Part shown: piece after piece, positions 22,101 to 49,990 of the stretch | How positions within the stretch are numbered: position 1 is the first letter of the stretch | How the letters are laid out: every line of letters begins with the position of its first letter | From: Spirogloea muscicola | Taxonomy: Eukaryota; Streptophyta; Zygnematophyceae; Spirogloeales; Spirogloeaceae | DNA: 64,000 nucleotides | Direction of reading: 5' to 3' | NCBI GenBank assembly: GCA_009602725.1 | Contig: WELB01000029.1 | Location: 356,342-420,341 of the forward strand | The notes under the pieces: generated by a model | The model's input: only the letters and a program-made list of their open reading frames with translations | The model's database searches: none | Told to the model about the DNA's origin: nothing | Made by a program: the position numbers and the translations under genes

Positions 22101-24889
22101 ATGCCGCCGCAGTAGCGCCCACTCCGACGCCTGGCCCTGTATCCAAATCCCAGCATGAGGTCTGGCAAATGCCGCAATGGCGAACCTTATATTACAAGCG
22201 GGGCAAGGTCAATACAGGCATTTGTTACTGCAGAACAGACATAGACAATTAATACTAACCCCAGGTAAATTTCAGGTCCCAAGTTGATGGCAATCAGGAG
22301 GACAAAGTGGGCACAGAGGCACTCGCCTGGAGCAGATTGGTGCACATGGCCATCTCGCCGCACGTGATGTCGGCGCCCAGCGTCTTGGCGACGCGGCGGA
22401 AGGGCAGGTTCCCGACCGTCGTCAGCGGCGCAAGATACAGCTTGCCGCGGAAGTCGACCACCTGCCGCTCCCGCGGAGGGGCCCGAGCTGGCTCTGGAGC
22501 CCCAGTATTGACGTCCCCATGTGGAAATGCTACTGTGGCCTCGCTGACGGACCCATTCACACCACTGCCAGTGGAAGCGCCATCTTGCTCCTCAAGGGCG
22601 TGGGAGCCGCCATCCTCCACCATCCGTGGCCGCTTGACGCCATCGGCCTCCAGCGCGTCCTCATTCCCACTGTGGAGAGCCATGCCTTCCTCCAATGAAG
22701 CCGGCTCGCATTCACCGACAATCTCCTGGACCTTCCGCTTGAGGCCCTCGCTGGCATCTTGAAGGCCGTCATCGCCCTCCTTGCCAGATGTATCGTCCAG
22801 CACCGCGTCCTCGCCAGGCAGTCCTTTCGGCGGGCGCACCTTGCCCTTGCTCTGGAAGCACAGGCCATTGAGTATGAGCAGCACTGTCAGGCACTTGTGG
22901 GTCCTGTTATGTTTCTGAACCCGCTAATTAATGGAAAACCATCAAGAGCTAGTCAGTCCTCACCTCTCAACCCATCTGCCGAGCCTTCAGCACTCCTCTC
23001 ACACTCCCTAGCCACTTGCTAGCCGTAAGCAAGGCACACTACTCCTTCCAAAGCACAGATTGTACACCTATTTGATTGACTTTACTATCTAATTCATCAA
23101 CCCTCGGGTCAAAGAAGTTTGGCTTACTCAGGTAGTCTAATCTATTTCCTACATCTACTAACAATCTGCACATCAGCATAGCTAACAGACTGGCAGGTAG
23201 AAAAGTTGTATGCGGTTGCAAGTTAGGCACCATGGGCTTAAGGTTCATACTTGCTGTCCTTACCAGGAGGCCATGTGCGCGAAGGTATGCATCGGCGCGT
23301 GGGAACGCGACGCGGTTCTTCCACAGGAGTTTCTGCAGCTCCTTGCTCAGGCCGTTCGCCTCTCCCTCGGGGCCTTTCTTCTGCGCGGCCCCTTGCTCAG
23401 GGGCGACGCCCGCTGCTTCCACGCCGTTTGTGGGAGCGGCGTGCCGCCCTGCGAAGCGGCAGGCCAGCCCGAAAGGGCACGGGTAGAGCTTGCCGGCAAA
23501 GGGGCAGTCGCCGTCCAGGTCGGCAGGTTTCTGCAGTCAACCACAAATATGATGCTCAGAGAGTCAGTCCCGATGAGAGTTAACGGACTCTATTGTGACA
23601 TTGATACCATGTGTTGGAAATAGTGCTGGGTGCTTATAAACAAATGTTACTGAAAAGCCCATGCCAACACCCATTCCCCGTTCACTCTCTGTCTCGCTCG
23701 TGAAGGTGTCAGGGAGGTATCCAGTCCTGCAGAGGCATGCTGACCACTTGCTGGCCGCGGACTCGCTGAGGAGCAGATGTGCAAGACTTGAGCTGCGACT
23801 GTCCCGCTCTCAGACAACCACCCGCCATCATCCAGGTTCACCAATTACTCTAAGACGGGACCCAACGCTTGCGACTACATGCAAAAGGAAGTGAAGGCGA
23901 GAGCATTTTGGGCTAGGAAGGAAGGGCAGAACTGAGGTGGCAGCCCAGGGCTTTGACTTCATGGAGGTCTGAAGCCTCAAGTCTTGACGACCCAGCAATC
24001 GACGAGTAATAGATTGGGACTTCCAAGAATCCTGAGTGTACGTTAAAAGTGGGTTCAGAACAGAAGCAAGAGGGCAGTACCGGCTACCTGGGCAAGGAAG
24101 CCCGCCAGGTCATGGTTGAAGCGGCAGGCGGCACCATAGGGGCAGGCATCGGTGCGGCCGGCCCGAGCCACTGCTGCACAGACGTGCTCTGCTGACACCT
24201 TTGCCTGCATGACGAGGCGGGACGGGGCGGGGCGATCAAATTGGTGCTCAATTGTTGCAGAAGCATAGGGCAGGGCAAATGGAAGGGGCCGCACCTGGTC
24301 AATCAAGATCTCCTACACGGTCAATGGAACTGTAAGCCAACAACAATTTGATCTCATTCTGAGAAATAGCAGCTATAGCGCCTAGTGACACAAAAGCAAG
24401 GCTGCAGAAGACGAAGATGGGCTGCTGATCATCAGAAACTATCAACGGCTTTTATTCCCGTTTCCATAGGTTCATGAACGGGTGGGTATATTTCCAGGAG
24501 CTATTGGGGATGGTCCAGTTATTAGTATCAAGAAGTGTTCTAGAAATGATATGCAACTCTCATGTGTGCTAGTCTGGTGTCGAGATATACATAAGCAGTG
24601 TTAGAGGTTTAGACATGCATTGGTCTGAGATCCGGTGAAATACCTGCTGCCTTTCCCGCTTCTGCTGCCGCCGGGACTTCTTGCCCGCCGGCATGCCCGC
24701 CGCCGTCGGTGGCGCCGGCACCGCAGGCGCCGCCACTTGAACCCTACTCTCCAGATTCCCAGTCTCAGCACTCAAGGCTGAAGTTCCTTCCGTCTGCTCT
24801 GGGGGCTTTCCGCCCTCCTTGGCCGACGAGCCCCGTGGCCGCAGGTACTCCCGCTTCACCGGCGCCCGGTTTTTGGCAACCAGCTCCAA
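19178..24889 (-). CDS. DUS3: tRNA-dihydrouridine(47) synthase, DUS3 type (complete)
   Basis: Flavoenzyme that reduces uridine to dihydrouridine in the variable-loop region of cytoplasmic tRNAs, with NAD(P)H as donor. Twelve exons: 24889-24644, 24204-24088, 23530-23264, 22851-22327, 22136-22011, 21811-21758, 21217-21125, 20834-20658, 20457-20350, 20121-20001, 19701-19532, 19276-19178. They total 2,103 nt, 700 residues, all in phase. N-terminus: APVKREYL and a basic [10 protein letters not shown] stretch. Next come two CCCH zinc fingers ([14 protein letters not shown] and [10 protein letters not shown]), then a long acidic, low-complexity linker of about 130 residues. The TIM barrel follows: [42 protein letters not shown], the catalytic Cys in [36 protein letters not shown], and the C-terminal [20 protein letters not shown]. 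The intron after 22327 has a GC donor (CAG|GCGAGT). Zinc fingers plus barrel are diagnostic of DUS3. Confidence 0.95.
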
Positions 24890-25070
24890 TGGTGTGAGGA
24901 GGGTGGTGTCTGCCAGGCCGCTGCGGGCAGGTGGAGCTTCTGTGCTTCCTGCGGTTGGGATGGAGCAGCTGGCTGGCCGTCAGCTGCCCAAGGGACTCGG
25001 GCGGGGGATAATGCAGGCGAGGCATGAAGGAAGGCCGGCTCATGAAGAGAGGGAGGCAGCGGTGACTGAG

Positions 25071-28906: not shown

Positions 28907-31900
28907 ATGGCGCCCGCGGCGGCGGCCATGACGGGCCCGAAGGCGCTGCTCTGGGCCGCCGTGCTGCTGAGCTGCTGTGCCGCCGGCGCACTCGCCGCCT
29001 GCGGCGCACCAGGTGGGCGCCCACATCCTGCCGGGCTGTTCGTCCTGAGGTCCCCTTCTGCACTGTGAAGCATGGCCCTGGCCAGGTCCCACTGACAGTG
29101 CCCTGCCGCCGTGGCCGCAGCGGGCAGCCTCGTGGGGCAGGAGAACTGCCTTCCCGGCGCCGGCGCGAGCTGGCGGCACAGCGTCGACCTCAACATCGTC
29201 GGCTTCTCTGACGACATCAGCTACGAGCCCGGCAGCGCTGTCAGCTTCAAGGTGGCTCCTGGGCCCCCCCTCCCTCGTGGAAACTCTCTGTCTGCCTCGT
29301 CCTTCCCTTTCCCTTCCCTTCTCGAGCTTCTGTGCAAAACCCATGTTAGCCCCACTGCGAGCTGGTCAGCTCACAGTATCTCCTCTTGCAGCCTCCTTGC
29401 CATTGACGACGCTGTTTGCAATGCAAGCCCGAAGGTCGTCAACTTCGGGCAGCATGCGTGCCCTTTGCTGCTTGTGCTCACTGGCTGTCACCACTGTTGG
29501 GGCTGTGCCTGCTGCCTTCCGGCACTTGTGCAGATCAAGGTGGCCACTGGCAAGACTTTTGCGTCTCTCAGCGTGCTGCGGCTCGGTTGGTACAACGGCG
29601 ACGGAGCGCGCGTGGTGACTACGGCACCTGTGACGGCCACCGGCACCGCCACGCAGCCGGCGTGCGCTTACAACTCAACCACGGGCCTGGAGGACTGCGG
29701 CAACTGGGCCACGACTGCAACGTGGACAATTCCAGCCAACGCTGTCTCTGGTTCGTCATCTTTACATACTCTCCCCTCCCTCCAAAGGCTTCCCTCTTAG
29801 CTCTGGGCTTGTTGCACAGGCCTCCACAGTCCCGCATCCGAGCTTCATTTCTAACACCATCATGTGCTGGTAGTTTTGTTCGTGACACTGGAGCACGAGG
29901 CAACAAACTATACTTAGTGGAAAGTGGCTACAGTTCTTACTCTTGGTCTCTACGCTTGCCGTTGTGGTCCTCACCAACTCGTTAAATCGCCACTTCCTCA
30001 CTCCTCAGGTGTTTACTCACGTCCTCGTCATCTTTGCAGGTCTGTATTTGGCACAGCTGCAAACAACAGGCAACCTGTACAACTATGTTCCCTTCATCGT
30101 TCGACAGCGTGCATCAGACACTGCTCCATCGGCCATCCTCTTCCAGACTTCTGACACAACCTGGCAGGTCCAGCTTCCTTAGCCGTCACCTATGCAAGAT
30201 TTTTCCACGTTTCCCCTTCTCAACTCATGGTAGTGGCTGCTACCACAGAGAGGCCATTGCCATTAGCGGGGCTCCGGCAGAGGGTGCATGGGTGATGAGC
30301 AGAAAGGTTGTATTCTCGTCCACGCCTTCATGTTTGCATAGCTGTCCTATTTGAGGAAGTATGGTCACCACCTGCATCCCTGGTCTGTAAGTAGCACCTG
30401 AAGACTGTCAAGACCGTGGTGCAACTTGGCTGCGTCTGTTGAGCTGCCTCCTGTGCGTTTGCAGGCGTACAACTTTTACGGGGACATGGGCAACAGCTTG
30501 TATCGTGGCAAGGGCCCTGGCAATGGGGCCTCGTCCGGCAGAGCATACAAGGTTTGGCCATGACAATAAAACTTTGCCTTCATGGTCTCAAGTCCTTTTT
30601 GCATAGACAAGCCCAGGGCCTGTGAGCAAGCAGAGTCTGCTCGGTGACACTCACATCGAAATTTAACCCTGAATTGTCTTGCCATACTTATGTGCAGGTC
30701 AGCTATAACCGGCCGTTCATCACACAGACCGGGGACTCAGTGAGCAACTCTGTCACAGGGCCGCAGGACTTCCTCTTCAATGCTGAGTACCCCATGATCC
30801 GGTGGCTTGAGCGCAATGGGTACGACGTTTCCTACTTCTCTGGCGTCGACAGTGATCGCTATGGCTCGCAGATCCAGGTATTTCCATTCTTGCTGGATAA
30901 GCATGTAGGCAGCTATGAGCGAGCTGCTTCAAGGTCAAGGGGCCAGCATTGCACAAAATTCAAGTACTTGTAGATATGCTACATGATGCACAAGTCATGT
31001 AGCACTACACCGATGGTGGCACTTTGACTTCACTCTAGATTGCATTTTTACTGGAATACATCCTTTCATGTGACTTTCGGTGCACGTTGATGCAGCTTCA
31101 CAAGGTATTCATATCGGTCGGCCATGATGAGTATTGGTCTGGCGGCCAGCGGCGAGCTGTTGAGGCAGCCAGGAACACGGGCGTTCACCTGGCATTTTTC
31201 TCGTGAGAGTTCCTCCGCTGCAGGCCATCAACTGGCATGCATAAGAAAAGTGACTACAAAATCTGACTTTCACCACGTCAACGTGCCTTCAACAGGGGCA
31301 ATACTGTCTTCTGGAAGACGAGGTGGGAGGCTGACCTGAACAACAAGGCCTACCGCACGCTCGTCTGCTACAAGGAGACGCATGAAAACGCAAAGATTGA
31401 TCCCCTTCCAACCGTCTGGACAGGTTGCCTCTGCTCCTGACGTAGCAGATAGCTCTGGTTTTCTCATGCTTGCATGCAACACGTCCAAGTGCAAGCATGT
31501 CTGAGCAAGCCCCTACTCCGCCACTGCTCATTTGCATTGCTGTGTAGCACTCTGCTTATGTCATTACTGTATAGTGCATGTTGCTGCTGTGTCAAAGTGC
31601 ACGCCTCTGCAAAACGTACATGGTTCCTGTACCAGCCAGGCGACTTGAAACAGCCAGGTTTGCCGTAGAGCGATTATGGACTACAGCGAGGACTGACAGC
31701 CTCTTTCTCTATCAGGGACCTGGAGAGACAATCGTCCTTTTGTGCCCTCTGGTCCTGATGGAGGTAACCAGCCAGAAAATACTCTCACAGGACTCATTTT
31801 CCTTGTGACTGGTGGTACCGTGGATTTGCAGGTGAGAGGGCTGTATAGGCTAGTGTACAATAGAATGCTTATTGATAGAGAAGCCTGCTCTATCGTGCTT

Positions 31901-34900
31901 AGGCTCACACCGTGTCCACAATATGCATGCTGACTGTGCACATGATTTTGTCTCACACAGTGTATCGTACATTAGACATGCAAGCACTCTGTGCTTCACA
32001 GCATGTCTAGGAGGAGAATTACAATAAAGGATTTCTTGTGTGATTTATTGGAGACTGTTGTGCTTGTGGTGCAGGTACCTGTCAGCGCCAGCCGATTGCG
32101 GTTGTGGAGGAACACCGCGGTGGCCTCGGAGACGAGCACAACCACCCTGGTCCCAGGCACAGTTGGTTACGAGTGGGACGTCGACACTGACAACGGCCTT
32201 CGTCCTGCTGGTCTGCACGAGAAGGGCCTTTGACCTCTATTAACTTTCACATTTAGTACATTTGAGTGCTGAATTTACAGAGATCCATTGTCAACCTTCA
32301 CCCGTTTTGCTGCAAGTTCAGCAGGGTGCCATGACTTGTCCAACACTGGTAGCTAACGAAATTGTCAATATCTGGCAGGGCTCATTCTGCTGTCCAAGAC
32401 AGATGCGCAAGGAGTATCTGTGCTGGTGGACCAGGGTTCGAACTACGTTGACGGGCCTGCCACGCACACGATAAGCCTTTACAAGTGGGGCTCTCTACCA
32501 GCTATGCTTATGTGCTTATGCATGTAAACTGTCCACAAAGTGGATCACATTAACATGTTTTTGCAGAGTGCTCTGCAAAGCCCCTGCTGACAATCAGAGG
32601 TGGCCTGGCTTTGGAGGCAGACACGCCAGTGGAGCCCTGGTGTTTGCATCTGGCACTGTCCAATGGGCATGGGGCTTGGATGGAACCCACGACCGTCCCG
32701 AGAACTCGCCAACTGCTGTTGACCTCCAACCAATGCAGCAGGCCACAGTCAACCTCTTTGCTGATATGGCGGTCTTCCCTGCCACCATCCAGGTTTCCCA
32801 GCCTTGTCATGTGACAGCATGTTTTTGTTGCCCACTCTGTGAGCCTTACCCATAAAATTAGATGCTAAAATGTAAAGATCCAGAAGTAGATTCACAACAT
32901 CAGCACACACGACTTTTCCTAGTATTACATTTAACTGGACAGTGACAACCTTGACACCTCATCTGCGTGCGGCGCAGAGCAACCTGGTGTCCAGCACCGC
33001 TTCGACGGACACACTGGCGCCAACAGCCAGCGTTGACTCTTACCCGCATTCGGGGTCCTCCTTGGCACAAGGAGCCTCTGTTACAATCAGTGGGAGCGCG
33101 ACTGATCCGGGCTCGGAGGCGAGCGCCACCCAGATTGGCTCCGTCGAGGTCTCCACTGATGGTGGCGCTACCTGGCACCCCAGCACCACTCTAGTGCGCA
33201 GCTCAACAAGGTGCACAATTGCCGCCAGGCGTGATGATCCTTTAGTCAGCCCTCCTTGACTCTTCTGAGCGTTGCGCTTGAGATGCCATGCACAATGTGG
33301 GGTCCGGAGAGCAATACAACCCTTGCCGGCTGCTTTAGCTGATTGCTGTGGCCAAGTGTAACCCACCTAATAAGTCATTGTTTGTGGCGTGCACCTGCAG
33401 TGCTACCTGGACATACAGCTTCACAGTCTCCAGCAGCAACTCCTCCCTCAGCCTCAGCCTTACGGCACGCGCCACGGATGACAGCCTCAATACAGGGGAC
33501 GCTTCTGCGAGCATATTGGTCGTGTACCAGATGTCAGGGCAGCCAGCTGTAGGTGGTCCTGGCTCGCCAAGCCACTGCCCTTGCAGGATCTTTGGGGACA
33601 GCTTCCCAGCACCCGACCTTGTTGACGTGTCTGATGGGGTGAGCCACCGCGACAAGTAATTTGGGCATCTCACAACCTATAGTTGTACGACCTACAATTA
33701 GACAACCTGCACGTAGATTCTGTCTAATTCAGTGAGGTCTTTCTGAGAACATAGGTGGGGCGAAGCTGACAACCAACGATGTTGTAGAGGAACTGATGTG
33801 GACTAGACATTGTCGCTTGCTGCCCTCTAACAAGGGCAAATGTGTTAACAGCATCCTATCACCGTCGGCAACAAGGTGTACTTCCAATCAGATGGCTATG
33901 TCACTGGCATGCGTCACTATGCCAGTGTCAGCAGCTACTCCTACACGGCCCGCATCTACCAGGAGAATTGCACTCTCCTTGGGCAGGTCAGTCATTCTGC
34001 CCGAGTTGAAGGGGCTAACCACGTGCATGTATGTAAGACCGGCTGATTTGTATGTTAAGGACGTGGAGACTCCCTATATGAGCTTGGGTGTTGACCTGAA
34101 AGTGACATAGCACAGATGTTTGTTGATCTCTGCTGGAATGACCTTCACCTCTAGTTGTCTTGATGACGCTTGGCTGCCACTTGCAGGCTGCTTTCCCCGT
34201 CGTTTCCACCGCAGGCTGGCAGAATGTTTACTTTCCTTCCCCTGTACAAGTCACTGCAGCTACTACATATGTGGCAGCAGGTCGATAATCAATGCTCCAG
34301 ACAGTCCTGTGCATGTAGCAAAGAACAACTATTACATTGTTTGGAACAATCTTGGCTCTACTTTTCAATACTCATCATGTGTGTGCTCTGAGCTTGTGCT
34401 CGCACTCGGTGATTGCAGTGTACTCACCGGATGGTAGATACAGTGACACAAATGGCTTCTTCGGAAGCATCACCAGTTACTCCGACTCGCAAGTGGCATT
34501 TGGTCAAGGAAATACCGCCGCCAGCCCCAACAATGTCTATATCTATGACAACGCATGCCCCAATGGTCCAGGCAGCTCGACTTATCAATCAGCCAACTAC
34601 TACATTGATGTCATCTTTGATTACGTCCCCGGCAGTTCAGATCCTCCAGCTGTAAGATCTTATGATGCACAGTATCTCCCATCTTTGCTGCTTACACCAA
34701 TCAAGCTGGCAGCTCAATTTGCAGCTGCATGCAGGCTTACATGCTATCACATGTGCAAGTCTTACTCATGCAATGAGGTGACAACCTGCAGGTGCTTAGT
34801 ATTAGTCCGGCAGATCAGGCCACAAGCGTGCGTACAAGCATAAGTTCAGTCATTGCTGCGTTCACCGAAAGCCTGGACCCTGCGACTGTGTCATCAAGCA

Positions 34901-37900
34901 CCGTGACACTGATGGATGGTGCCAGCCCAGTTCCTGTAAGTGTCTCTCCTGTCTCACGATTTTCCCATGCTGTAATTAGAGGGCTCGCTGTGCTGTCATT
35001 CAGGTGAGCTAGCCTTGTGTGCATATTATGGCTACCACTCACAATTCGAGTAAAGCCTTCCAGTTACTCATTATGGCTTAATTGGCCCTGGCAGGGAATT
35101 GTCAGCTACGATTCCTCGCAGCTCGCAGTTGTCTACACACTGTCCAACAGCCTCGACGGGTCAACCAACTATGTGCTGACGATCAAGGGCGGGACAGGTG
35201 GGGTGAAGAACACTTTGGGGACACCGCTTTCTTCAGATTTTACCTCAAGCTTCACCACCGGTGCTGCACCCATCACGCTGCCAGATCCCAACAGCGATAA
35301 CGGCCCAGGTATGCTTTGTGTTATGGGGATATTGCTCCAAGCTAGAGTGTGGAGTCAGACTCGTGTCCGCTGCAGATCAGAAGTATGTGGAACCTTGGGT
35401 CATCAAGAGCAAGTCAACTTGCTATTGACCAGTGAAGGGCACCGGGACCTGGGGCCGTCGTTACAAAGGGTCCTCTAATTCAATCAACTAGCTTGCAGGG
35501 GGCCCAATCTTGGTAATTGTCAGTACCACCAATAAGTTCTGCCGGTACTTTGGCGAGATCTTGCGCGCCGAGGGCTTCAACTTGTTCACAATCAAGGACA
35601 TTTCGGCCGTGACCAGCGCGGACCTCACGGCTGCTGATGTGGCCATTCTTGGAGACATACAGGCCGTGACGGCTGCACAGGCAAGCAAGCACAAGCAAAG
35701 TGTCTGTGATATAGTCGCGCCAACAGGGCGTGGCAACTTGCAAGAAACATGCTCGTGCAGATGTCGTATAATGGGGACCCAAGTAGCATTCGATCAGACT
35801 GGCCTGCAGATTCCTCGGCTCTGCAACACAATGTCTCACATGCATCTGCGTTGGGCACCTTGGGCAGGTCTCGTCGTTGTCCAACTGGGTGGCTGGTGGC
35901 GGGCGACTGATAGTCAGCAGGCCAAGCACGCTCTTTGCCTCCCTCCTCGGGCTCACCAGTGTCTCGGGCATCATCAGTGAAGGCTATTTCCTTGTCGACA
36001 CTACTGTGGCACCTGGCAAAGGTACACATATGTCAGCACTTAGGCATCTCAGGAAAGGTATGCAAGGATTGTTTAGACATCCACAATTTCTGCTGCTAGA
36101 AAGACATGTACATCAATATCAACGTCCATATTTGTCCCGTACTTGCAGGCCTGACATCTGAGTCGATGCAGTACCACGGGACCAGCGACCAGTGGCAGGT
36201 CGATGCTGCAGCTTCTCCAGCTACCAGGAGGGTGGCCAGCCTCTCGGCGACGGCAACAGCGAGCACCGGGCTGGTGGCCGTCAGCTTGCGGACAGTGGGC
36301 GTTGCAGGCGGCCAGGTGGCTGCATTCACGTTTGACATTGCACGTTCCGTGGTGTACACAAGGCAGGGCAACCCAGCGTGGGCAGGCCAGGAGCGCGACA
36401 TGATCAGCCCCAAGCGTTCAGATGACCTGTTCGCCCCCCAGCCCTGGCATCTGCAATGCTATCAACCACTGGAAATTATGGACCATTCAAGTGCAATAGT
36501 AGACCCTTGAATATTACGTGTGGATCCACCTTCAGAGCTAGTCTTGAAAGTGGTGCCAAGATGCAAGACATGCCCTCCCCAAGGGCTGCATTAATGACAG
36601 GAGTTCGTGTAATCATGACACAATCTGACAAGAGAGGTCTACGTTGCTGTATAGCAGATCAGGCACTGTTACTGCTCTCTGAGTCGTGTACATGCCCATG
36701 CAGATTCTACGGCGTGGTCGGCCAAGAGTGGGTGAACCGCGACAAGGTGCATATCCCTCAGGCAGATGAGCTGATGCGGCTACTGTCCAACGTCATCCGT
36801 GCCCTGACCTTTGACATCAAGCCCCTCCCCAAGCTCTGGTACTTCCCCAACTACTACAAGGTGGTCGTCATCCTGACGGGCGACGAGCACGGGGACGGCA
36901 ATGTCGCTAGTCGCTTTGACAACCTGATGGTGACGCTCTATTTCATCTGGCCAACTCAGAAGTAGACCCACTCCATCAGGCGAATCTTAGATCCCACATC
37001 ACAGATCCTTACCATATATAGACACAGTTGTATTTATCCTAGTGCTAATACTTAAGTAGACCCCACATTGCGTCCTGCTATCTTCCCTGGCAATATCTTG
37101 ACATATCGACAGCAAGCTCCTTGTAGTAGCCTGACCTCATTCAACTCAAGCTCGTGCTGTTGTGGGCATTGCCACCTTGCTAGGCTGCCGATCCACCGAG
37201 CTGCAACCTTACAAGGTGGGAGTGCATCAGGGGTTCCTCGTACTTCTACCTGGGTGGCTCCTTCAGCAACACGCAGGCCCAGGTCCACTGACTCCTGCCC
37301 ATGTCTTGTGCCAATGCATAATGGTTGTTGCTTTATCAAGTCAGACGCTAGCTTACCTACGTCAGTCTCAATTGCTTAACTTCTTGTGGGCCTGGACTTG
37401 CAGCACTATCAATCTCTTGGTTTTGAAATGGGAGTGCATGTGAACACCGGCTGCGCCGACTGGACACCAGCAACTTTGGACCAATTCTACGTTGACCAGC
37501 TAGGCTCATTTGGTGAAAAGTACACGTCAGTGCCACCGCAAACGACGCACCGCACGCACTGCATTGCGTGGAGCGACTGGGCGACGCAGCCTAAGGTGGA
37601 GCTCAGCCACGGTGGGCCGTACTGAACCACCTTCACCTGGACACAGGCCTCTTTCACATTGTTTTCTGGCACGCAGAATGCTTAGAAACAGCAACAATCA
37701 TCACTGTGTACCTTATCTGCAGGCATTCGGCTGGACACGAACTACTACTATTACCCTCCTTTCAACACGCAGGGCCAGCCTGGCTGGATCTCCGGCACGT
37801 ATGTCGGCCACATGTCTGGCTCTGCCCTTCCCATGAGGTGCGTCCACTTAAGCTGACAGCATTGACACCGAGCAGTAGCAAGTGGAGGAGCCACCTTACC

Positions 37901-40900
37901 CACGTCGTTTGACTGTATGTGCTGCTGACACGTTCTTTGAGGAGTTTGACAGTTACTCCTGGCAGTTACTTAACGCCCATGTTTCATCACACAGATTTGC
38001 AGACCTTGACGGGCAAATAATTGACGTTTTCCAAGTGATGACTGAGATGACGGATGAGTCAGGCCAGACATACCCGAGCTTTGTGAACACGCTCCTGGAC
38101 GCAGCTCTCGGCGCGCCACAGTACTACGCCGCTCTGACAGTCAACGCTCACTCCGACTCGGAGCCCAATCCTGTGACCCAGGCGATCGTTGCGGTGACCA
38201 TCTTGCTGCCTAGAAGAACCCTGTGACATAGTCGCAGGGCACATATTGCATGCTTGAGATGGATGGGCTTATGCAATATGCAGGTCACAAGAAAACCACA
38301 ATCTGATGGTTGACAGTTGGTCGCTTTGTGCAGTCAAGCAAGTCGAGGAACACGCCAGTCGTCAGTGCTACTCAGATGCTCCAGTGGATCGATAAGCGGA
38401 ACAAGGTGTCATTCAGCAACATTGTCATGTCGCCGGCTAGGGACTCACTGACGTTCACCGTCGCCACCTCGGGCAGCTTCCCCTGGGGCGTTACATCAAC
38501 CCTGCCTACCATCATCAACTCGGGTATGTGCTCTTCACAAGTCAATCAAGGGGCTCTGATGCCATGACCCTGGGTTTCACCACATCCAGCTGGAGTTGGC
38601 GGTACAGTAGCATGAGCATCATTCAGCCTCTGAAGATAAACAACAAAATGAGCGTCACCCAGCAGTATGCAGTTGATTTCAGCTGCAAGCTACATTGCAG
38701 CTACATGGACTTGGTTATATCTCACAAACTTGATCCATGTCAGGAGTGCTGCTGGGCATCACTGGACCAGGCGGCGCTGTCTCGTACAAGACCGACACAA
38801 TAAAGGGTGAGTGTGGCAGCCAGCCTCGGTAGCCTGCCCCTGTGTGACATGTCGCACTGCAGCAAATATGTTGGGCTAAAGAATTTCTTGAATGTGCGAG
38901 TGTTTTTCTCGGGCTTCATCCATGTGCAGGCATCCAGCACGCGGTCTTCGCAGTCATTCCGGGCGATTACACTGCCACATACAGCAATGCGCCGCTGCCG
39001 CAGTCGCCTCCGCCGCCCCCACCTGTGGCTCCAGCCCCTGCGCCCGCTTCCTCACCTTCTGCACCAACGATCTACGACAGCACTGCTGCAGACTTCGCAG
39101 CAGCTACTACACTGTCGGCTGCCTGCTACATATCCCAGGAATCTGATGGCGAGGTCATTCTGGCCCCCACACTTGGTGAGCTTATCAGTTGCCTTGGTCA
39201 GTCTGCAATTGTCACTCAGGCATCTGGTTGTGACGTTAAGCAAGGTAGGCCTCAAAGGGCTGTGCACCAAGCGAGTGCTGCAGAGATGGTCATCAACCTG
39301 ACATCCTCCAAAACCGAGTGTGGCAGCGACGGAGTTTCCGTCGCCACTGGGGCCCGACTTTCAGGCAGATGTTTGGGACGGCACGGGATCACTGACGTAC
39401 GCACCAACGGGCAAGTTGACGCTGAGCCGAGCATACGTACGGGCAGCGGCATACACGGCCGCCCCCACAGGCGATCAGGTCGTCGCGCTCGAGTTCTCCG
39501 CCAACTTCTCGGCCGACGCTACTGCCTCCCAGAACCAGCACGTGGGCTTTGGCACAGACCTTAACGGCTGCCCCTGGGCCCTTATAAGCACGACCAGGGG
39601 CTCATCAGGCCAGCTATATGCGCGAACATGCGGCCCGTCGAACTCCGACGAGGTCATCGGTCTCGGCGATAGCTCCCTCGGCTCCTTCCACACGTTCCGT
39701 ATCGAGGTGGGCGGCGCTTGGCTCCTCACTCCCACTCAATGTATCCTCTGTTGACCTGTTCGCTAGGCAAAGAAGCAGCACCGAAGCAGACAATGACCCG
39801 TGTTTCCTACATTTGGTTGGCAGTGGCGGGCAACCGGGTTCACGTACCTGCTCGACGGTGTTATGGTGGCCATGTCAACCGTAACGATTGGTAGTCAGAT
39901 GAGGCCGATTGGCAGCGCATACTCAAGCAACCCAACGACGCTGACACTGGACTGGCTGCACCTCAGCCCCTACAGCTCCGCAGCGTGCCAGTTCTCATCG
40001 CAGCCGCTGGCAGCTCCCGGGGCTGCGGCGGTTATGTGGCAGTCTCTGACACTGGACGAAGATGTGCCGGCGAGTACTTCTATTGGGGGAGTGGCATGGA
40101 GCTATGGTAGTGTCCTGCCACCAGACACGTCCTGGACGACTGTGGCGCTGCCGACCCAGGCGAGTGCCACATGGGTGCTGAGCCCTGGGAGTGCGTCGAT
40201 GTACATGATATACTCATTTGCGCTGGCATCAACCGATGGGCAGCACACCCCGGCAGTGCGGCAGGCTGCCGTCACTTATGGGACAGGTCAGCCGCAGTTG
40301 TTTGAGCATCAATATCTGAGTTTCCTGATTTGCATCAACTACTCTGTAGACTGCAGCGGCTCAGGCCTTGTGCTGACTGTGCAACTCTTTCTGCAGCGTC
40401 CTCACTGTCGCCGCCGCAGCCGGTGTCTCCTCCGCCACCTCCCACGCCACCTTCACCAAAGACGTCATCTCCAGTACTGCCGCCGCCTTCATCACCGCCC
40501 CCAGTTGCACCAACGCAGCCCCCAATGACAAACTCTAACCTCACAGACACGAACACCACAGACTTTGCCGCCGGCTCGGCGACCGGCTGCTACATTGCTC
40601 AGCGCAGGGACGGTGAAGTGATTGTGGCGCCAACACTTGGTTAGCATTCTCTTCCCTGCAAAGCTTCTTAAGGTCTTTGCAAGCTGGGCTTTAATTATCC
40701 TGGTGCAAATCTTTGGGCACACTACGAATCTTACATCTGCGCTTTGCCTTCTGCCTGTTATCCAGCGACTGAATTCTCGGCACCAGTGGGCTCTGACTTC
40801 GAGGCAAACACCTGGGACAGCCAGGGTGCATTGACGTATGACACGACGGCGGGCACTTTGACGTTGAGCCGAGCGTATGTGCGGGCGGCAGCATTCACCA

Positions 40901-42134
40901 TGGCCCCCACTGGCAGCCAGGTCATTGCACTCGAGTTCTCGGCAAAGTATGCAGCTGACGCGGCTGCATCGCAGAACCAGCATGTTGGATTTGGCACCGA
41001 CCTCAATGCCTGCCCGTGGGCTATTATTAGCACAACCCGAGGCTCATCAGGTCAGCTGTATGCACGGACATGCGATGGAACAAACAGCGAGGAGGTCATT
41101 GGCCTCAGTGACAACTCCCTTGGTGCCTTCCACACGTTCCGGATTGAGGTGAGTGGCTCTTGTTGGCCCCACGTGCTTCTTCCAGTGTGGCCTCCAATTT
41201 CTGTGTGTGTGCTCTTGTGGCGCATTATGTGTCATTAGTGAAGGTGGACCGCACGAGGCAGAAAGAGCATGACGTGTAACCTCTGTCATTGGCTTGCAGT
41301 GGCGAGCGACTGGATTCACATATCTGCTCGACAACGTTGTGGTGGCAACGTCAAGCGTGACAATCAGCGCCCAGATGAGGCCAATCGGCAGCGCGCTCTC
41401 AAGCAACCAGCCAATCCAGCTGACGCTGGACTGGCTGCACCTGCTACCATACGGCCCCACCTCGCCCTCTTGCACGTTCACATCACGAGCGCTCGCTGCG
41501 CCAGGCAGCACACCGGCTCTGTGGACCTCGCTCAGTCTGGAGGAGGACGTGCCGGCAGGCACGTCTGTCACATCGGTGAGCTGGAGCTATGGGGACGTCC
41601 TGCCGCCAGATGCGTCCTGGACGACGACGGCTCTGCCAGCCAACGGTGGCCCCGTTTACACACTTGCTGCCAGCCGCCCGACCAAGTACATGGCCTACTC
41701 GTTCGTTCTCTTTCCGTCAGCTGATGGGCAGCGCACGGCAGCCATTGGCGCAGTCGCTGTCTCATACCAGCCAGGTAAGCTTCACCATCACCATTTGTGC
41801 AAAATGCTTTACTCTGAAATGGTTGTCTGCACTGTGAGCCGGCTGCCACAGCCCTTACCCCCTTGGCCATTTGGCCTTCGTTTGTATCAAACACTTCAAA
41901 TTTTCCAGTGGGAGATCCACTTTCTTCATTCTATTGTCTTTCTTTTTCTCCGGATATAAATCCCATTATCTGTTTGCCGCAGCGCCGCCGCCGCCGCCAT
42001 CACCGCCGCCGCCGCCGCCGCCGCGGCCCTGGCTGCGCAGGCTTCCCGCGAGGCCCTTCCTGGCGGCTCACGGTCTCCTCACGGTCTCGTCGTCTGCCAG
42101 TCCACTGCCTGCGACATGGTCGTCCGTTAGCTAA
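28907..42134 (+). CDS. Secreted multidomain protein, N,N-dimethylformamidase beta-like mosaic (36 exons)
   Basis: My 36-exon model sums to 7,017 nt (2,338 residues), every junction in phase. First exon 28907-29012, last 41983-42134 (TAA). A second ATG at 28928 gives a classical signal peptide (MTGPKALLWAAVLLSCCAAG). Approximate order: residues 45-560, DMFase beta-like region (YPMIRWLERNGYDVSYFS; GHDEYWSGGQRRAVEAARNT; GTVQWAWGLD); 560-690, Ig-like (SVEVSTDGGATWHPST); 690-870, DUF4082-like (CPCRIFGDSFPA; YYIDVIFDY); 868-985, SbsA-type Ig (ISPADQATSV); 987-1200, flavodoxin-like (GPILVIVSTTNKFCRYFGEI; VYTRQGNPAWAGQERD); 1235-1500, deacetylase-like (ILTGDEHGDG; GVHVNTGCADWTP; HGIRLDTNYYYYPP). Then come two Pro-linked beta-sandwich modules (to about 2288) and a Pro-rich tail. 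I know this order only from bacterial secreted proteins. Substrate unknown. Confidence 0.88.
38930..41774 (+). repeat. Tandem duplication of a three-exon C-terminal module
   Basis: Exons 38930-39175, 39327-39706, 39824-40286 (module 1) and 40397-40639, 40766-41148, 41300-41774 (module 2) encode homologous segments. Each has a Pro-rich linker, DFAA(A/G)..CYI..DGEVI(L/V)APTL, a sandwich domain (QNQHVGFGTDLN.CPWA; GSSGQLYARTC) and WRATGFTYLLD..V followed by LTLDWLHL. Intron positions and phases (1, 0, 1) are identical in both copies, so the duplication came after the introns were in place. Confidence 0.92.
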
Positions 42135-43041: not shown

Positions 43042-43536
43042 TCAGTAACCTCTAGTCAGTGGATGCAAATCGGAATAACTAGCAGGCGGATTGACGTTGC
43101 CCTGACGGAAGCTGGAGGCCACGGCCAAAGAGTGGCCCGCGCGCAAGTGGACCGCGAAGACAAGGGACCGCTGCAAGGAGATGGCCAAGCGCATCCAGAA
43201 GACTTGGGCAAGGGACCCGGCGACATTGAAGCTCGCACTGCTGCCCGTGGCGCGGGCCACTGCACTCCGCGCAAGGGGGTGAATAAGGTCAAGCCATTCT
43301 GTCTCAAAAGCTCCGTGTACGTCGACGGCGAGTGGGACGAACTCCTCCCCCTTTGGGTGATACGGACCAGCTCTATCAAAGGAGGCGAGTAAAAACTTCT
43401 CAGCAGCCGCAGCTTGGACAAAGTAGCAGCTAGAAAGAAAGAAACCGCGTGGTGCCCACGAAATGAACCGAGGAAGACGCCTCCAGGAGAAGGCGATGGC
43501 TGAGAGTGGCCAGCCCAGACAATGGGGATAGTCCAT
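43042..43536 (-). pseudogene. Retrotransposon ORF, C-terminal fragment (diverged copy)
   Basis: Contains EEFVPLAVDVHGAFETEWLD, ISLQRSLVFAVHLRAGHSLA and the end SDLHPLTRGY. It matches the C-terminal third of the ORF at 44573-45469 with many substitutions, and is 5'-truncated and upstream-frameshifted. Confidence 0.8.
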
Positions 43537-44572
43537 TCTTTTCTGGGCTGGCTTTGCTAGCCCCTCTTTTTCTATGGGCGAGCCCTTCCCCCAGGGATTG
43601 GGGGGGGGGGGAAGGAGGGCCGGCAGAGCCCCTGGGGGCCTTTCCGGCAGCTAGTTTGTCGGATTTGAGGCTCCTCACTCGTAAATACTGAGTGGTCCAT
43701 CCTCCCCCATTCTGACATAGCATTTTCAGGCCCCTTCGTAGCTGCTTAGCGCTTTTTCGGCCCTTCCGTCAATTGGCCCCTTCGAACCTTTGTCAATTCT
43801 TTTCGGGCTGGCTTTTCACAGCCCTTGCCCCCATTGGGAGTGCCAATTCTTTCCTGCTGAGTGGTCCATCCTCCCCCGTTCTGACATAGCATCTTCAGGC
43901 CCCTTCGTAGCGAGCACTTTCTTCGTGGCTGCTTAGCACTTTTTAGGCCCCTCCGTCATTTGGCCCCAACGAAACTTTGTCAATTTCTTTTTCGGGCTGG
44001 CTCACAGCCCTTGCCCCCATTGGGAGTGCCACCTCTTCTTTCCTGCGTCTTCTAGGCAACCCGACGAGACCCAGAAAAAGAAAGCGTGGCCCAAGAAAGA
44101 AGAAGAAGGGCTCGCCCATTGAGGATAGGAGCTGGGAAATGCCAGCCCAAAAGAGAATAAAGAAATGACGAGAAGGGGCCAAGGAAACTAAGAATCAATA
44201 AAAAAGCACGTCCGGAAGCAGCAGCCATGGCACGGCCTGCCCGCAAGTGTACTGCGTGAGCTGGGGACCGGAGGAAGATTGGGAGCAAGCGCGGCCAGAT
44301 TAACTGGTGGCTGGGAGAGGCCAGCAAGAGATTGTGGGTAGCAAAGTAAAACAGCACTTCCGAATTGACAGCAGTGGCTGTGAGAGGCCAGCCCAAAAGG
44401 AATGGACAACTGGACAAAGGACACAAAGAAGAAGTGGCTCTCCCAATGGGGGCAAGGGCTGTGAGAAGCCAGCCCGAAAAGAATTGACAAGGTTCGAAGG
44501 GGCCAAACTACGAGCTAAGCAGCGACTGCGGGGCCTGAAGAGGCTATGGCAGAACGGGGGAGGATGGACCAC

Positions 44573-45469
44573 TTAGTAGTTACGAGTGAGGAGCCTCACA
44601 TCCGACAGACTAGCTGCCGGTAAACTATCCCCCTGACGAAAGCCGGAGGCCGCAGCGAGAGCACGGCCAGCACGCAGATGCAAGGCGTGGGCCATGGACC
44701 GCTGGAGGGAGACGGACAAGCGCATACGATACACCTGAGCCCAAGAGCCAGCGGCGTTGAAGTCAGCCGGCTCACCGCGCCTGCGGGACACAGCGCGCCG
44801 TGCAAGCCTGGCCAACAGGTCGAGCCAGTGGGATCCGAGAGCCCCATGCACGTCCACAGCCAGGGGGACGAACTCGTCGGCAGCCGGGTGGTCGGCGTGT
44901 TTGGCCGCCTTGCTGCGAGCGGCCTTTGCCGCAGCGTGGCCAGCCCGCGAGGCAGAAAGCCCCGGGTTGGAGCGGTCGACCACATCAGTGGTGACCACAT
45001 CGGCAATGATGCGCCCGCCACCGCCCGTCGTGGACGCCACCAAGTCGACGCGGCGCGTGTGGAGTCCGTCGGCCCTCTGGAGGATGGGCATGACAGAAGT
45101 ATTCTCCATCGCAACTGTGTATCCGGCCTCCTGAAGGATGCCGAACATACCGTCGCGGAGGAGGTCGTGAGCGGCTGTGCGCTCGCCGCCAGTGGCGCAG
45201 CGAAGGATATGTGCCGCTAGCTCCGCGGGGTCCGTCGACCGCTCCCCACACTCACACTGCAGCACGCCAAGCAGACGGCGGGGGAAGACCCAACAGGCGA
45301 TGGGTGGCCGTACGGAAGAGTTCGTCCGGCATCCTGAGGGCGTCGTACAGGGGGAGCGCGGACAGCCAGGCTGCCGCGCCAGGGGAGGCGGCCGACAGCA
45401 GCCGAGCATGGCCTCGCACGTCTGTGGGAGGGAGGAGCTGCAGCGTGGCCGTGAAGGAGGCCTTGTCAA
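44573..45469 (-). mobile_element. LINE-like retrotransposon ORF fragment: zinc knuckle plus nuclease-like C-terminus
   Basis: Open frame of 298 residues, the best-preserved copy in the window. It is 5'-truncated: no reverse-transcriptase motifs are present. Order: a CCHC-like knuckle (CECG..., HILRC), a helical segment (TAAHDLLRDGMFGILQEAGY), then RRVDLVAS and ADVVTTDVVDRSNPG. Next is an Ala/Lys-rich helix (HAAAKAARSKAAKHAD), then EFVPLAVDVHGALGSHWLDL, MRLSVSLQRSMAHALHLRAG and the end SDVRLLTRNY. The Asp-bearing DLV/DVVTTD strands followed by a Lys-rich helix resemble the restriction-enzyme-like endonuclease region at the C-terminus of some non-LTR element proteins. That assignment is inference. 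Confidence 0.75.
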
Positions 45470-45534
45470 CTGCCGCCATGTACCGCGGACACAAAGGGTT
45501 TGAATAGCCGGATACGGGATAACGAAAGGAGCTA

Positions 45535-45775
45535 ATGCCTATATTCTCTGGCGCGCTGTGTCCCGCAGGCGCGGTGAGCCGGCTGACTTCGCCGCCGCTG
45601 GCTCGTGGGCTCAGGTACACCGTATGCGATTGTCCGTCCCCCTTCAGCGGTCCATGGCCCACGCCTTGCATCTACTCCGGCTTCCGTCAGGGCGACGTCT
45701 TTCCGCCTGCTAGCTACTCAGACTTGCATCTACTGACGAGAGGTTACTGAGAGTTTGCTTACTGCTGTCTCAGTC
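45535..45775 (+). pseudogene. Retrotransposon ORF, 3' fragment (opposite orientation)
   Basis: A plus-strand copy of the same C-terminal region, frameshifted and with an internal deletion between the LQRSMAHALHL-equivalent and the GFRQGD segment. It ends SDLHLLTRGY and stops at about 45750. It faces the minus-strand copy at 44573-45469 head to head. Confidence 0.75.
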
Positions 45776-45858
45776 CTTAGCACTCCGACTCCTTCAGACC
45801 TTGTCCATTCTTTTGGGCTGGCCTCTCCCAGCCACCAGTTAATCTGGCCGCGCTTGCT

Positions 45859-46453
45859 CTTGCATCTGCGTGCTGGCCGTGCTCTCGCTGCGGCCTCCGG
45901 CTTTCGTTAGGGGGATAGTTTTCCGGCAGCTCGTCTGTCGGATTTGAGGCTCCTCACTCGTAATTACTGAGTAGGTCCATCCTCCCCCGTTCTGCCATAG
46001 CCTCTTCAGGCCCCTTAGTAGCTGCTTAGCTCGTAATTTGGCCCCTTCGAACCTTGTCAATTCTTTTCGGGCTGGCTTCTCACAGCCCTTGGCCCCATTG
46101 GGAGAGCCACTTCTTCTATATTCTTTCGCCCATAGAGAAAGAGGGGCTAGCAAAGCCAGCCCAGGAAAGAATGGACACACGGAACACCTGGGCAAGAAGA
46201 AGTGGCTCTCCCAATGGGGGCAAGGGCTGTGAGAAGCCAGCCCGAAAAGAATTGACAAGGTTCGAAGGGGCCAAATTACGAGCTAAGCAGCTACTAAGGG
46301 GCCTGAAGAGGCTATGGCAGAACGGGGGAGGATGGACCTACTCAGTAATTACGAGTGAGGAGCCTCAAATCCGACAGACGAGCTGCCGGAAATCTATCCC
46401 CCTGACGAAATCCGGAGGCCGCAGCGAGAGCACGGCCAGCACGCAGATGCAAG
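45859..46453. repeat. Large near-perfect inverted repeat of retroelement 3' ends
   Basis: Left arm 45859-46116 (258 bp) and right arm 46196-46453 (258 bp) are near-perfect reverse complements around a 79-bp spacer. The spacer itself contains a smaller stem-loop (GGGGCTAGCAAAGCCAGCCC). Each arm carries the ORF end, stop, tail and stem-loop of the LINE family, so the two copies are tail to tail. Confidence 0.92.
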
Positions 46454-46970
46454 GCGTGGGCCATGGACCGCTGAAGGGGGTCGGACAATCGCATACGGTG
46501 TACCTGAGCCCACGAGCCAGCGGCGGTGAAGTCAGCCGGCTCACCGCGCCTGCGGGACACAGCGCGCCGTGCAAGCCGACAGGTCGAGCCAGTGGGATCC
46601 GAGAGCCCCGTGCACGTCCACAGCCAGGGGGGCGAACTCATCGGCAGCCGGGTGGTCGGCGTGTTTGGCCGCCTTGCTGCGAGCGGCCTTCGCCGCAGCG
46701 TGGCCAGCCCGCGAGGCAGAAAGCCCCGGGTTGGAGCGGTCGACCACATCAGTGGTGACCACATGGGCAATGATGCGGCCGCCGCCGCCGTCGTGGACGC
46801 CACCAGGTCGACGCGGCGCGTGTGGAGTCCGTCGGCCCTCTGGAGGATGGGCATGACAGACGTATTCTCCATCGCAACTGTGTATCCGGCCTCCAGGAAG
46901 ATGCCGAACATTGCGTCGCGGAGGAGGTCGTGGGCAAGCCACCGGCGACGTTGACGCCGGGCAGCTCACC
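46342..46970 (-). pseudogene. Retrotransposon ORF copy with frameshifts
   Basis: Second long minus-strand copy, closely matching 44573-45469 (MENTSVMPILQRADGLHTRR, LQRSMAHALHLRAGRALAAA, SDLRLLTRNY). The reading frame shifts after the GGCGGC-rich region near 46780 and returns near 46575, where a short segment (LARL-equivalent) is deleted. The copy is therefore dead. Its 5' junction is near 46970. Confidence 0.85.
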
Positions 46971-47470
46971 TCGCTGTCCCTGCCCACGGAGCGAACAAGG
47001 TCCACGTGGTGATGGCCGTCCTGGAAGGCGCGCGGAATTAGGAGCAGCAGGCAGCTGAAGGAGAAAGAAGAAAGAGAAAGGGCTCGCCCGTTGAGGATAG
47101 GGGCTGGAAAAGCCAGCCCAAAATGAAGTGAACAAGGAAGGAAAAAGCGCGGCCAGATTGACTGGTAGCTGTGAGAGGCCAGCCCAGGAAAAGGAATCGA
47201 CAGTCTGAAGGAAGGGACAGGAAAGGCCTGGAGGGGCGAAGGCTCGGAAAGGCTTGGGAAAGATTAGCGCGGCCAGAAGATTGACTGGTGGCTGGGAGAG
47301 GCCAGCCCACACGAATGGACAAGGTCTGAAGGAGCCGGAGTGCTAAGGACTGAGACAGCAGCAAAGGGGAAAGGCTCGGAAAGGCACCTCCGGCGGGACG
47401 TCTCCCTGTCAGCCAGCTGCACTCCCCTGTCAGCCAGCAGCAGCTCGCGTCCACCCCCGCGGCTGCCCAC

Positions 47471-49990
<2,520 letters not shown>

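Follow-up and report, generated by a model that had tools for sequence, protein, structure and literature searches.

How did a green alga come by a gene of 36 exons whose product is built, module after module, like a bacterial secreted protein? The question is raised by a 64,000-nucleotide (nt) stretch of the Spirogloea muscicola genome, here called the window, which covers positions 356342-420341 of contig WELB01000029.1 (C29) in an assembly of 153 Mb and 471 contigs that was searched as a whole. The gene, which encodes an N,N-dimethylformamidase-like (DMFA2) domain followed by Ig-like, DUF4082, Big_5, second-core (Core2) and LamG-like modules, is very likely real and of bacterial origin; the direction and the date of its transfer are held with less confidence. 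The host is probably a green-lineage (zygnematophycean) alga that is close kin of land plants.

The 36-exon model of the initial annotation was rebuilt by hand, with the same exon number, the same ends and the same 7,017 nt of coding sequence without an internal stop. Its introns are of the GT-AG type in 34 of 35 cases and of the GC-AG type in one (intron 20). Within this structure the start of exon 12 was corrected to position 32621 (acceptor GGAGGCAG, exon opening with ACACGCC), which removes 54 nt and leaves 6,963 nt of coding sequence and a product of 2,320 residues. The former start, implied by the larger total to lie at 32567, adds 18 residues that are missing from all 17 bacterial rows of the alignment. 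With the start at 32621, the algal line reads LYKHASGALVF against a consensus of LYRHxSGALVF and equals 16 of the 17 bacterial rows in length, the row of locus L035 holding five extra residues there; in addition, an apparent stop in one sister copy (on contig C19) and an apparent frameshift in the other (on C64) come to lie inside an intron. The corrected start was adopted because the bacterial rows fit it and because these two apparent lesions vanish. The end of exon 36 is provisional, since all three copies enter a proline-rich repeat where the sequence stops or reads N.

A genome search detected exons encoding the PF20254 domain on C29 (the window) and on two further contigs, C19 and C64. 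When the copies were aligned exon by exon, the boundaries and phases of exons 1-35 were found to be kept in both sister copies, and 33 of the 35 exons (with exon 12 as corrected) were identical in length in all three; exons 30 and 33, which encode proline linkers, differ by multiples of three. In each sister copy, introns 1-34 have 33 GT donors, one GC donor and 34 AG acceptors, and intron 35 can be recognised by eye at its two ends. Identity among the copies is 93.0-94.9% in exons and 86.3-87.2% in introns (computed with the former exon 12), and differences between the C29 and C19 copies number 105, 67 and 307 at codon positions 1, 2 and 3. The ratio of nonsynonymous to synonymous substitution rates (dN/dS) was 0.174 for C29-C19, 0.178 for C29-C64 and 0.190 for C19-C64. 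It was lower than the whole gene in every pair for the DMFA core (0.10-0.12) and the second core (0.11-0.15), and in the other parts ranged from 0.060 (Big_5, C19-C64) to 0.248 (Ig/DUF4082, C29-C64). The C64 copy is open across exons 1-35. Kept boundaries, frame and dN/dS of this kind are not produced by chance. Taken together, these sequence comparisons reveal that the gene is real and that its three copies look like working genes under purifying selection.

Contig C19 is also colinear with the window over approximately 2.3-25.1 kb, with one piece inverted, and again across the gene, at 78-88% identity. Long runs of N flank the C64 copy, and the duplicated block is visible for C19 only. This colinearity speaks against contamination, which was ruled out by the spliceosomal introns, the presence of three copies in one assembly and the colinear C19 flanks. 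For the window copy, a pseudogene was ruled out by the open frame, the intact splice dinucleotides and the low dN/dS.

Table 1. Features of the DMFA2-containing gene of S. muscicola, in window positions.
Feature	Position	Strand	Basis or remark
Whole gene, 36-exon model	28907..42134	+	Paralogs confirm exons 1-35; 3' end provisional
Exon 1, with the start codon; hydrophobic N-terminus as a presumed signal peptide at about residues 1-31	28907..29012	+	Kept in three copies
DMFA2_C (N,N-dimethylformamidase beta-like), about residues 91-501, exons 3-12	29567..32683	+	Pfam PF20254, E 1.1e-98; ends approximate
Tyr196 (codon 30468-30470) and Tyr207 (codon 30501-30503)	30468..30503	+	Counterparts of Y399 and Y440 (profile alignment)
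His293 (codon 31123-31125) and Glu295 (codon 31129-31131)	31123..31131	+	Counterparts of H519 and E521 (profile alignment)
Exon 12, corrected start	32621..32792	+	Sister copies and bacterial alignment
Ig-like module (Big_7), exons 13-14	32978..33450	+	E 2.5e-4; 22.1 bits, just below the curated cut-off of 24.1; ends approximate
DUF4082, exons 14-17	33613..34608	+	Pfam PF13313, E 7.1e-24; ends approximate
Big_5 (SbsA-type Ig-like), exons 17-19	34641..35259	+	Pfam PF13205, E 4.5e-13; ends approximate
Amidotransferase-like (ThuA / GH42-trimerisation-like) half of Core2, exons 20-22	35499..36428	+	Read from bacterial relatives; boundary between the halves is our reading
Intron 20, GC-AG, common to all three copies	35681..35867	+	Splice-site comparison
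Polysaccharide-deacetylase-like half of Core2, exons 23-30 (start); ILTGDEHGDG, GVHVNTGC, RTHC and NAHSD motifs	36704..38986	+	
Last part of Core2 with proline-rich linker 1 and LamG/ConA-like module 1, exons 30-32	38930..40286	+	
Proline-rich linker 2 and LamG/ConA-like module 2, exons 33-35	40397..41774	+	Duplicate of the exon 30-32 cassette, same intron phases
Exon 36: start of third proline-rich stretch	41983..42134	+	End provisional

Membership of the first domain in PF20254 was evident from a score of 331.5 bits against a cut-off of 27. The Pfam query for the module calls ended after the first LamG module and carried the former exon 12; a search of NCBIfam gave no useful family. With regard to a possible likeness to plant-type hydroxyproline-rich wall proteins, which carry a secretion signal and repeated Ser/Pro-rich tracts, the window copy holds three proline-rich stretches and a hydrophobic N-terminus. 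Hydropathy peaks at residue 14, and the hydrophobic N-terminus recurs in all three copies, in agreement with the signal peptide proposed at the outset, which was judged here by hydropathy only.

The initial annotation had also proposed to look for an iron site of two tyrosines and one glutamate. In the large subunit of the Paracoccus dimethylformamidase (DMFase), iron is held by Y399, Y440 and E521, and the Y440A, E521A and H519A variants are inactive, according to the available portion of the report (PMC7686228). The algal counterparts Tyr196, Tyr207, Glu295 and His293, mapped by profile alignment, were found to be present without exception in all 38 sequences compared, 35 of them bacterial and three algal, so that the residues of the putative site are in place. 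When the PDB was searched with a profile of the DMFA region, N-acetyl-(R)-beta-phenylalanine acylase (8i5a, E 3.4e-16) and DMFase (6lvb, E 4.3e-8) were matched; the algal DMFA region alone matched neither of them in the PDB at E up to 1. The predicted DMFA domain of a bacterial relative finds DMFase and the acylase by fold, in a weak model with a predicted local distance difference test score (pLDDT) of 66.

For Core2, a structure model of a bacterial relative (pLDDT 88.5) matches enzymes of the glycoside hydrolase family 42 (GH42) type, amidotransferases and polysaccharide deacetylases by fold, the deacetylase-type matches being 3rxz (E 8.8e-7; template modelling (TM) score by target 0.56) and 4dwe (E 1.4e-5), both obtained for this relative and not for the algal chain. 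No Pfam deacetylase family was found in 23 bacterial relatives (E up to 0.5) or in the algal protein (E up to 0.1); in the relatives, at E up to 0.5, DUF4350 was found in 16, ThuA in 11 and Glyco_hydro_42M in three. Thus, the earlier idea of a NodB-like domain holds at the level of fold and finds no match at the level of Pfam family. Across 85 sequences several Asp, His and Cys columns are invariant or nearly so, a result that concerns residues and not the geometry of a metal site; those invariant include the Asp in GD(D/E)H, the His and Cys in both HVNTGC and RTHC, and the His in NAHSD.

As read from the sequence, catalysis on an extracellular polysaccharide would be the likeliest role, held at somewhat below even confidence. 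The secreted protein of approximately 2,300 residues would be exported and held on the polysaccharide by its Ig- and LamG-like modules. DMFA2 would carry a mononuclear iron on Tyr196, Tyr207 and Glu295, with His293 as a helper, and would cleave amides, for example N-acyl groups; acyl groups on the same or a neighbouring glycan may be taken off by the second core. The same modules could also belong to a protein that is no longer an enzyme and acts in the extracellular matrix, with the bacterial modules as a binding scaffold. The proline-rich linkers and LamG-like modules, which make up the C-terminal third, would suit such a scaffold, as would the finding of no reported activity for a close relative, the relatives named for an activity being the distant DMFase and acylase. 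This alternative is doubtful, the strongest of those considered here, because both catalytic cores show, in every pair, a lower dN/dS than the gene as a whole and because the iron ligands and the His, Asp and Cys residues of the core are kept.

Relatives were sought in collections of prokaryote genomes, plasmids and viral contigs. All that were found are bacterial or viral. With the second half as query, 264 stretches of the genome contigs were found to encode a relative, and the 79 distinct loci kept from these cover eight bacterial phyla at 45-50% identity (best 50%). Both catalytic halves stand on one frame in 33 of the 79, with DMFA first in 18 and the core first in 15; LamG follows the core in seven of the 18. 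The algal order of modules, which the initial annotation had described as familiar from bacterial secreted proteins, was indeed found in four of the 79 (L031, L038, L040 and L056), with extra DUF4082, Big_5 or LamG modules. Several loci are cut by contig ends, and the counts for one frame, LamG and module order are lower bounds. On plasmids, a first query matched 188 records, 138 of them from Rhizobium or Sinorhizobium, all at less than 60% identity, and among the matches listed the match falls in the N-terminal half. The second half matched 29 plasmid records (27 from Sinorhizobium), each over at least 80% of the query. Of the plasmid loci read, L016-L018 encode only the second half and L019-L020 only the DMFA half. 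In Nostoc carneum (L022) and Actinopolymorpha rutila (L046), DMFA2 and Core2 are encoded by separate neighbouring genes, which suggests that the two proteins act together.

Among viral contigs, the core half gave 35 pattern matches and no relatives in IMG/VR, and a viral vector was set aside for this half. Separately, nine IMG/VR contigs (L102-L110) encode a DMFA2 relative that is 34-39% identical to the bacterial query from L035.

Unrooted trees of bacterial relatives and algal copies were built for the core (85 rows), for DMFA (38 rows) and for both jointly (36 rows that have both halves); length filters removed no row from the first two (85/85 and 38/38). Plasmid rows L016-L018 entered the core tree, where L017 forms a long branch, and L019-L020 the DMFA tree; none is in the joint tree. 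The algal copies form a single clade on a long branch in each (0.86 for the core, 0.94 for DMFA and 0.83 jointly). In the joint tree this clade falls outside Pseudomonadota (99/99), Nocardioides (100/100) and a group of Bacteroidota with two Anaerolineales (100/99), next to an unresolved group of five rows, from Acidobacteriota (two), Chloroflexota (two) and Actinomycetota (one). By approximately unbiased (AU) tests on the core, the alga grouped with five Chloroflexota gave a p-AU of 0.548 and the alga grouped with eight Cyanobacteriota a p-AU of 0.862. The constrained trees scored better than the quick Core2 tree by 2.66 and 31.89 log units, and the topology of that quick tree is therefore not reliable. 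Three trees and two AU tests named no donor, and none is claimed.

A long branch outside well-supported bacterial subclades, in a comparison without eukaryotes, would also be expected of an old eukaryotic family inherited vertically, whose bacterial likeness came from a much older shared origin. We regard this as improbable: the same order of modules occurs in bacteria, and a limited literature search, itself weak evidence, returned a bacterial secretome as its sole DUF4082 match and, among the 13 dimethylformamidase titles listed, none naming an alga. The same search found nothing that joined dimethylformamidase, horizontal gene transfer and algae.

If the gene came from a bacterium, the module order need not have arrived exactly as it now stands. 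In a tree of LamG modules, the six from the algal copies all fall together (100/100), separate from the 13 bacterial ones; the tree covers eight of the 11 loci with a LamG match, L043 having been left out as short and L059 and L079 not having been found in that search. The intron phases before exons 30, 31 and 32 are identical to those before exons 33, 34 and 35 (1, 1 and 0). Because the algal modules form a single clade and the phases match, the second LamG-like module most likely arose, judging from these sequences, by duplication inside the alga after the introns were gained. The linkers differ as well. By eye, Fn3-like stretches precede the first LamG module in L031, L038, L040 and L056, and Big_5-like ones lie between their LamG modules (in L038 and L056 Big_5 also has a Pfam match between two LamG modules); in the alga, proline-rich tracts occupy these positions. 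Such tracts were looked for in nine bacterial proteins: L051 has proline-threonine tracts near its end, L032, L035, L056 and L079 have short proline runs directly before the core, L056 has another tract near its end, and L031, L038, L040 and L045 have none. Hence the proposal that the gene was acquired as one unit and then gained introns agrees with the bacterial loci that share its module order, and does not hold for the second LamG module, which was most likely duplicated after intron gain, so that the gene would not have been acquired exactly as it stands; the proline-rich linkers at the place of Fn3-like and Big_5-like stretches, and a one-frame arrangement in only 33 of 79 loci (15 of them reversed), also call for amending it.

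A looser version, in which the two halves were acquired separately and fused in the alga, would fit the plasmid loci, N. carneum and A. rutila, where the halves are distinct proteins. Given the 33 kept loci with both halves on one frame, four of them in the algal order, we consider it decidedly unlikely. A decaying pseudogene family, to which the in-frame stop of the C19 copy would point, is very improbable, as the window and C64 copies are open over exons 1-35 with intact splice dinucleotides and dN/dS of 0.17-0.19.

The surroundings of the bacterial genes bear on the proposed substrate. Of 88 listed neighbour frames, 30 were chosen by hand and scanned, from 17 of 24 loci, and an exopolysaccharide-type neighbour was found in six of the 17 (L022, L023, L053, L067, L095 and L096). 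By annotation, polysaccharide genes lie upstream in the R. etli plasmid locus and an exopolysaccharide gene lies downstream in that of Falsirhodobacter. A downstream neighbour in L053 (16258-18513) joins an AAA ATPase to a UDP-GlcNAc 2-epimerase-like domain.

From these results we tentatively propose that the alga took over, entire, a bacterial enzyme of exopolysaccharide remodelling that has two catalytic centres, including a 2-Tyr-1-carboxylate iron site, and remade it as a wall or mucilage protein through introns, proline linkers and a duplicated glycan-binding cassette, three copies being kept after genome triplication. Less tentatively, the gene probably descends from a surface protein of bacteria, arranged as DMFA2_C, Ig, DUF4082, Big_5, amidotransferase/deacetylase-like core and LamG and passed on by horizontal transfer. 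Approximately 35 spliceosomal introns would then have been gained, after which the three-exon cassette carrying LamG was most likely duplicated in tandem; proline-rich linkers of the plant cell-wall kind would also have been gained, and later duplication would have given the three copies under purifying selection.

Several observations weigh against this proposal. The lowest dN/dS does not always fall in a catalytic core, as the Big_5 value for C19-C64 illustrates, and the C19 copy (locus L009) retains one in-frame stop, at codon 159 in exon 4. The DMFA structure model is weak and was used solely for its agreement with the sequence match. Among the frames scanned, 11 of the 17 loci have no exopolysaccharide-type gene, the match in L022 (Wzt_C) is below cut-off, and the Pararhizobium and Paenarthrobacter plasmid loci have no exopolysaccharide genes by annotation. 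The very long algal branch (0.83-0.94) leaves placement among the bacteria unsettled, neither the Chloroflexota nor the Cyanobacteriota grouping is rejected, and collections free of eukaryotic genomes leave room for a wider eukaryotic family. In this otherwise open copy the stop at codon 159 may be recent, may be a variant or may stem from a sequencing error.

Other features of the window and genome were recorded. At 22187-24979 on the minus strand, upstream of the gene in both C29 and C19, exons read as a DUS3L-like tRNA-dihydrouridine synthase; its Pfam zinc finger is below cut-off (20.8 bits against 30), and the C19 counterpart matches at 67% with stops in read-through (introns or decay). 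The window also contains pieces of two dehydrogenases, one of the 2-hydroxyacid and one of the isocitrate/isopropylmalate type, and a perfect CT repeat of approximately 178 units at 47665-48021, directly 5' of an N. Several similar open frames at 43042-47000 on the minus strand look like a retrotransposon reverse transcriptase end, and pieces of them recur on C64; one of these frames had no match in Pfam. Light-harvesting genes lie at C29:331304 and C19:1091409, within approximately 55 kb of the copies and in opposite orientations relative to the copy, which suggests a rearranged duplicated block. Genome-wide, 68 light-harvesting exon matches were found, and one exon tried matched chlorophyll a-b binding proteins in the PDB. 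GRAS matches numbered 92, and the top-scoring ones fall on contigs in threes that score almost alike; chlorophytes are not known to have GRAS. These sets of three, as matched by sequence, would be in keeping with a triplicated genome. A genome triplication is stated for S. muscicola in the available portion of one report (PMC7994812). A search of the genome for the RuBisCO large subunit gave no match, and one for DUF3707 gave none either, with controls that were empty too, so that it proves nothing.

Gene transfer from soil bacteria into the closest algal kin of land plants is an active question. In this case a multi-module protein of approximately 7 kb of coding sequence appears to have come through transfer, the gain of many introns and duplication without loss of its catalytic residues, and the three copies, the shared introns and the internal duplication make the order of events testable. 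If the protein is active, a bacterial polysaccharide enzyme would have been put to use in an algal wall or mucilage.

Comparable transfers are known. GRAS and PYL reached Zygnematophyceae from soil bacteria, and LPR1 is also a transfer to streptophytes, according to the available portion of one report (PMC9168544). Like the present gene, these passed from a bacterium to a streptophyte alga and were retained; they are regulators, receptors or a single oxidase, whereas the gene described here encodes a multi-module protein of great length and goes unmentioned in that portion of the source. The large subunit of Paracoccus DMFase (6lvb) shares the DMFA2_C region and the counterparts of Y399, Y440, E521 and H519, but is, as far as the same portion of its report goes, a chain of 775 residues that works with a small subunit (PMC7686228). 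Its match to the profile of the DMFA region reaches only E 4.3e-8, and its fold match is partial (TM by query 0.51, weak model). N-acetyl-(R)-beta-phenylalanine acylase (8i5a, 8huy), whose substrate we take from its name, is the best sequence-profile and fold match of the DMFA2 domain; unlike the algal protein, it is a chain of 772-776 residues that lacks the other modules as far as the alignments show. Polysaccharide deacetylases (3rxz, 4dwe) resemble Core2 in fold, as seen on the bacterial relative, but their usual H-x3-H motif is absent from GVHVNTGC. The giant secreted DUF4082 proteins of bacteria (L038, L056) have no introns, carry Fn3-like or Big_5-like stretches at the positions of the algal proline linkers, and have LamG modules that group with other bacterial LamG apart from the algal ones; with the alga they share the same order of modules, with extras, and they are 51-52% identical to it over the DMFA part and 47-48% over the core.

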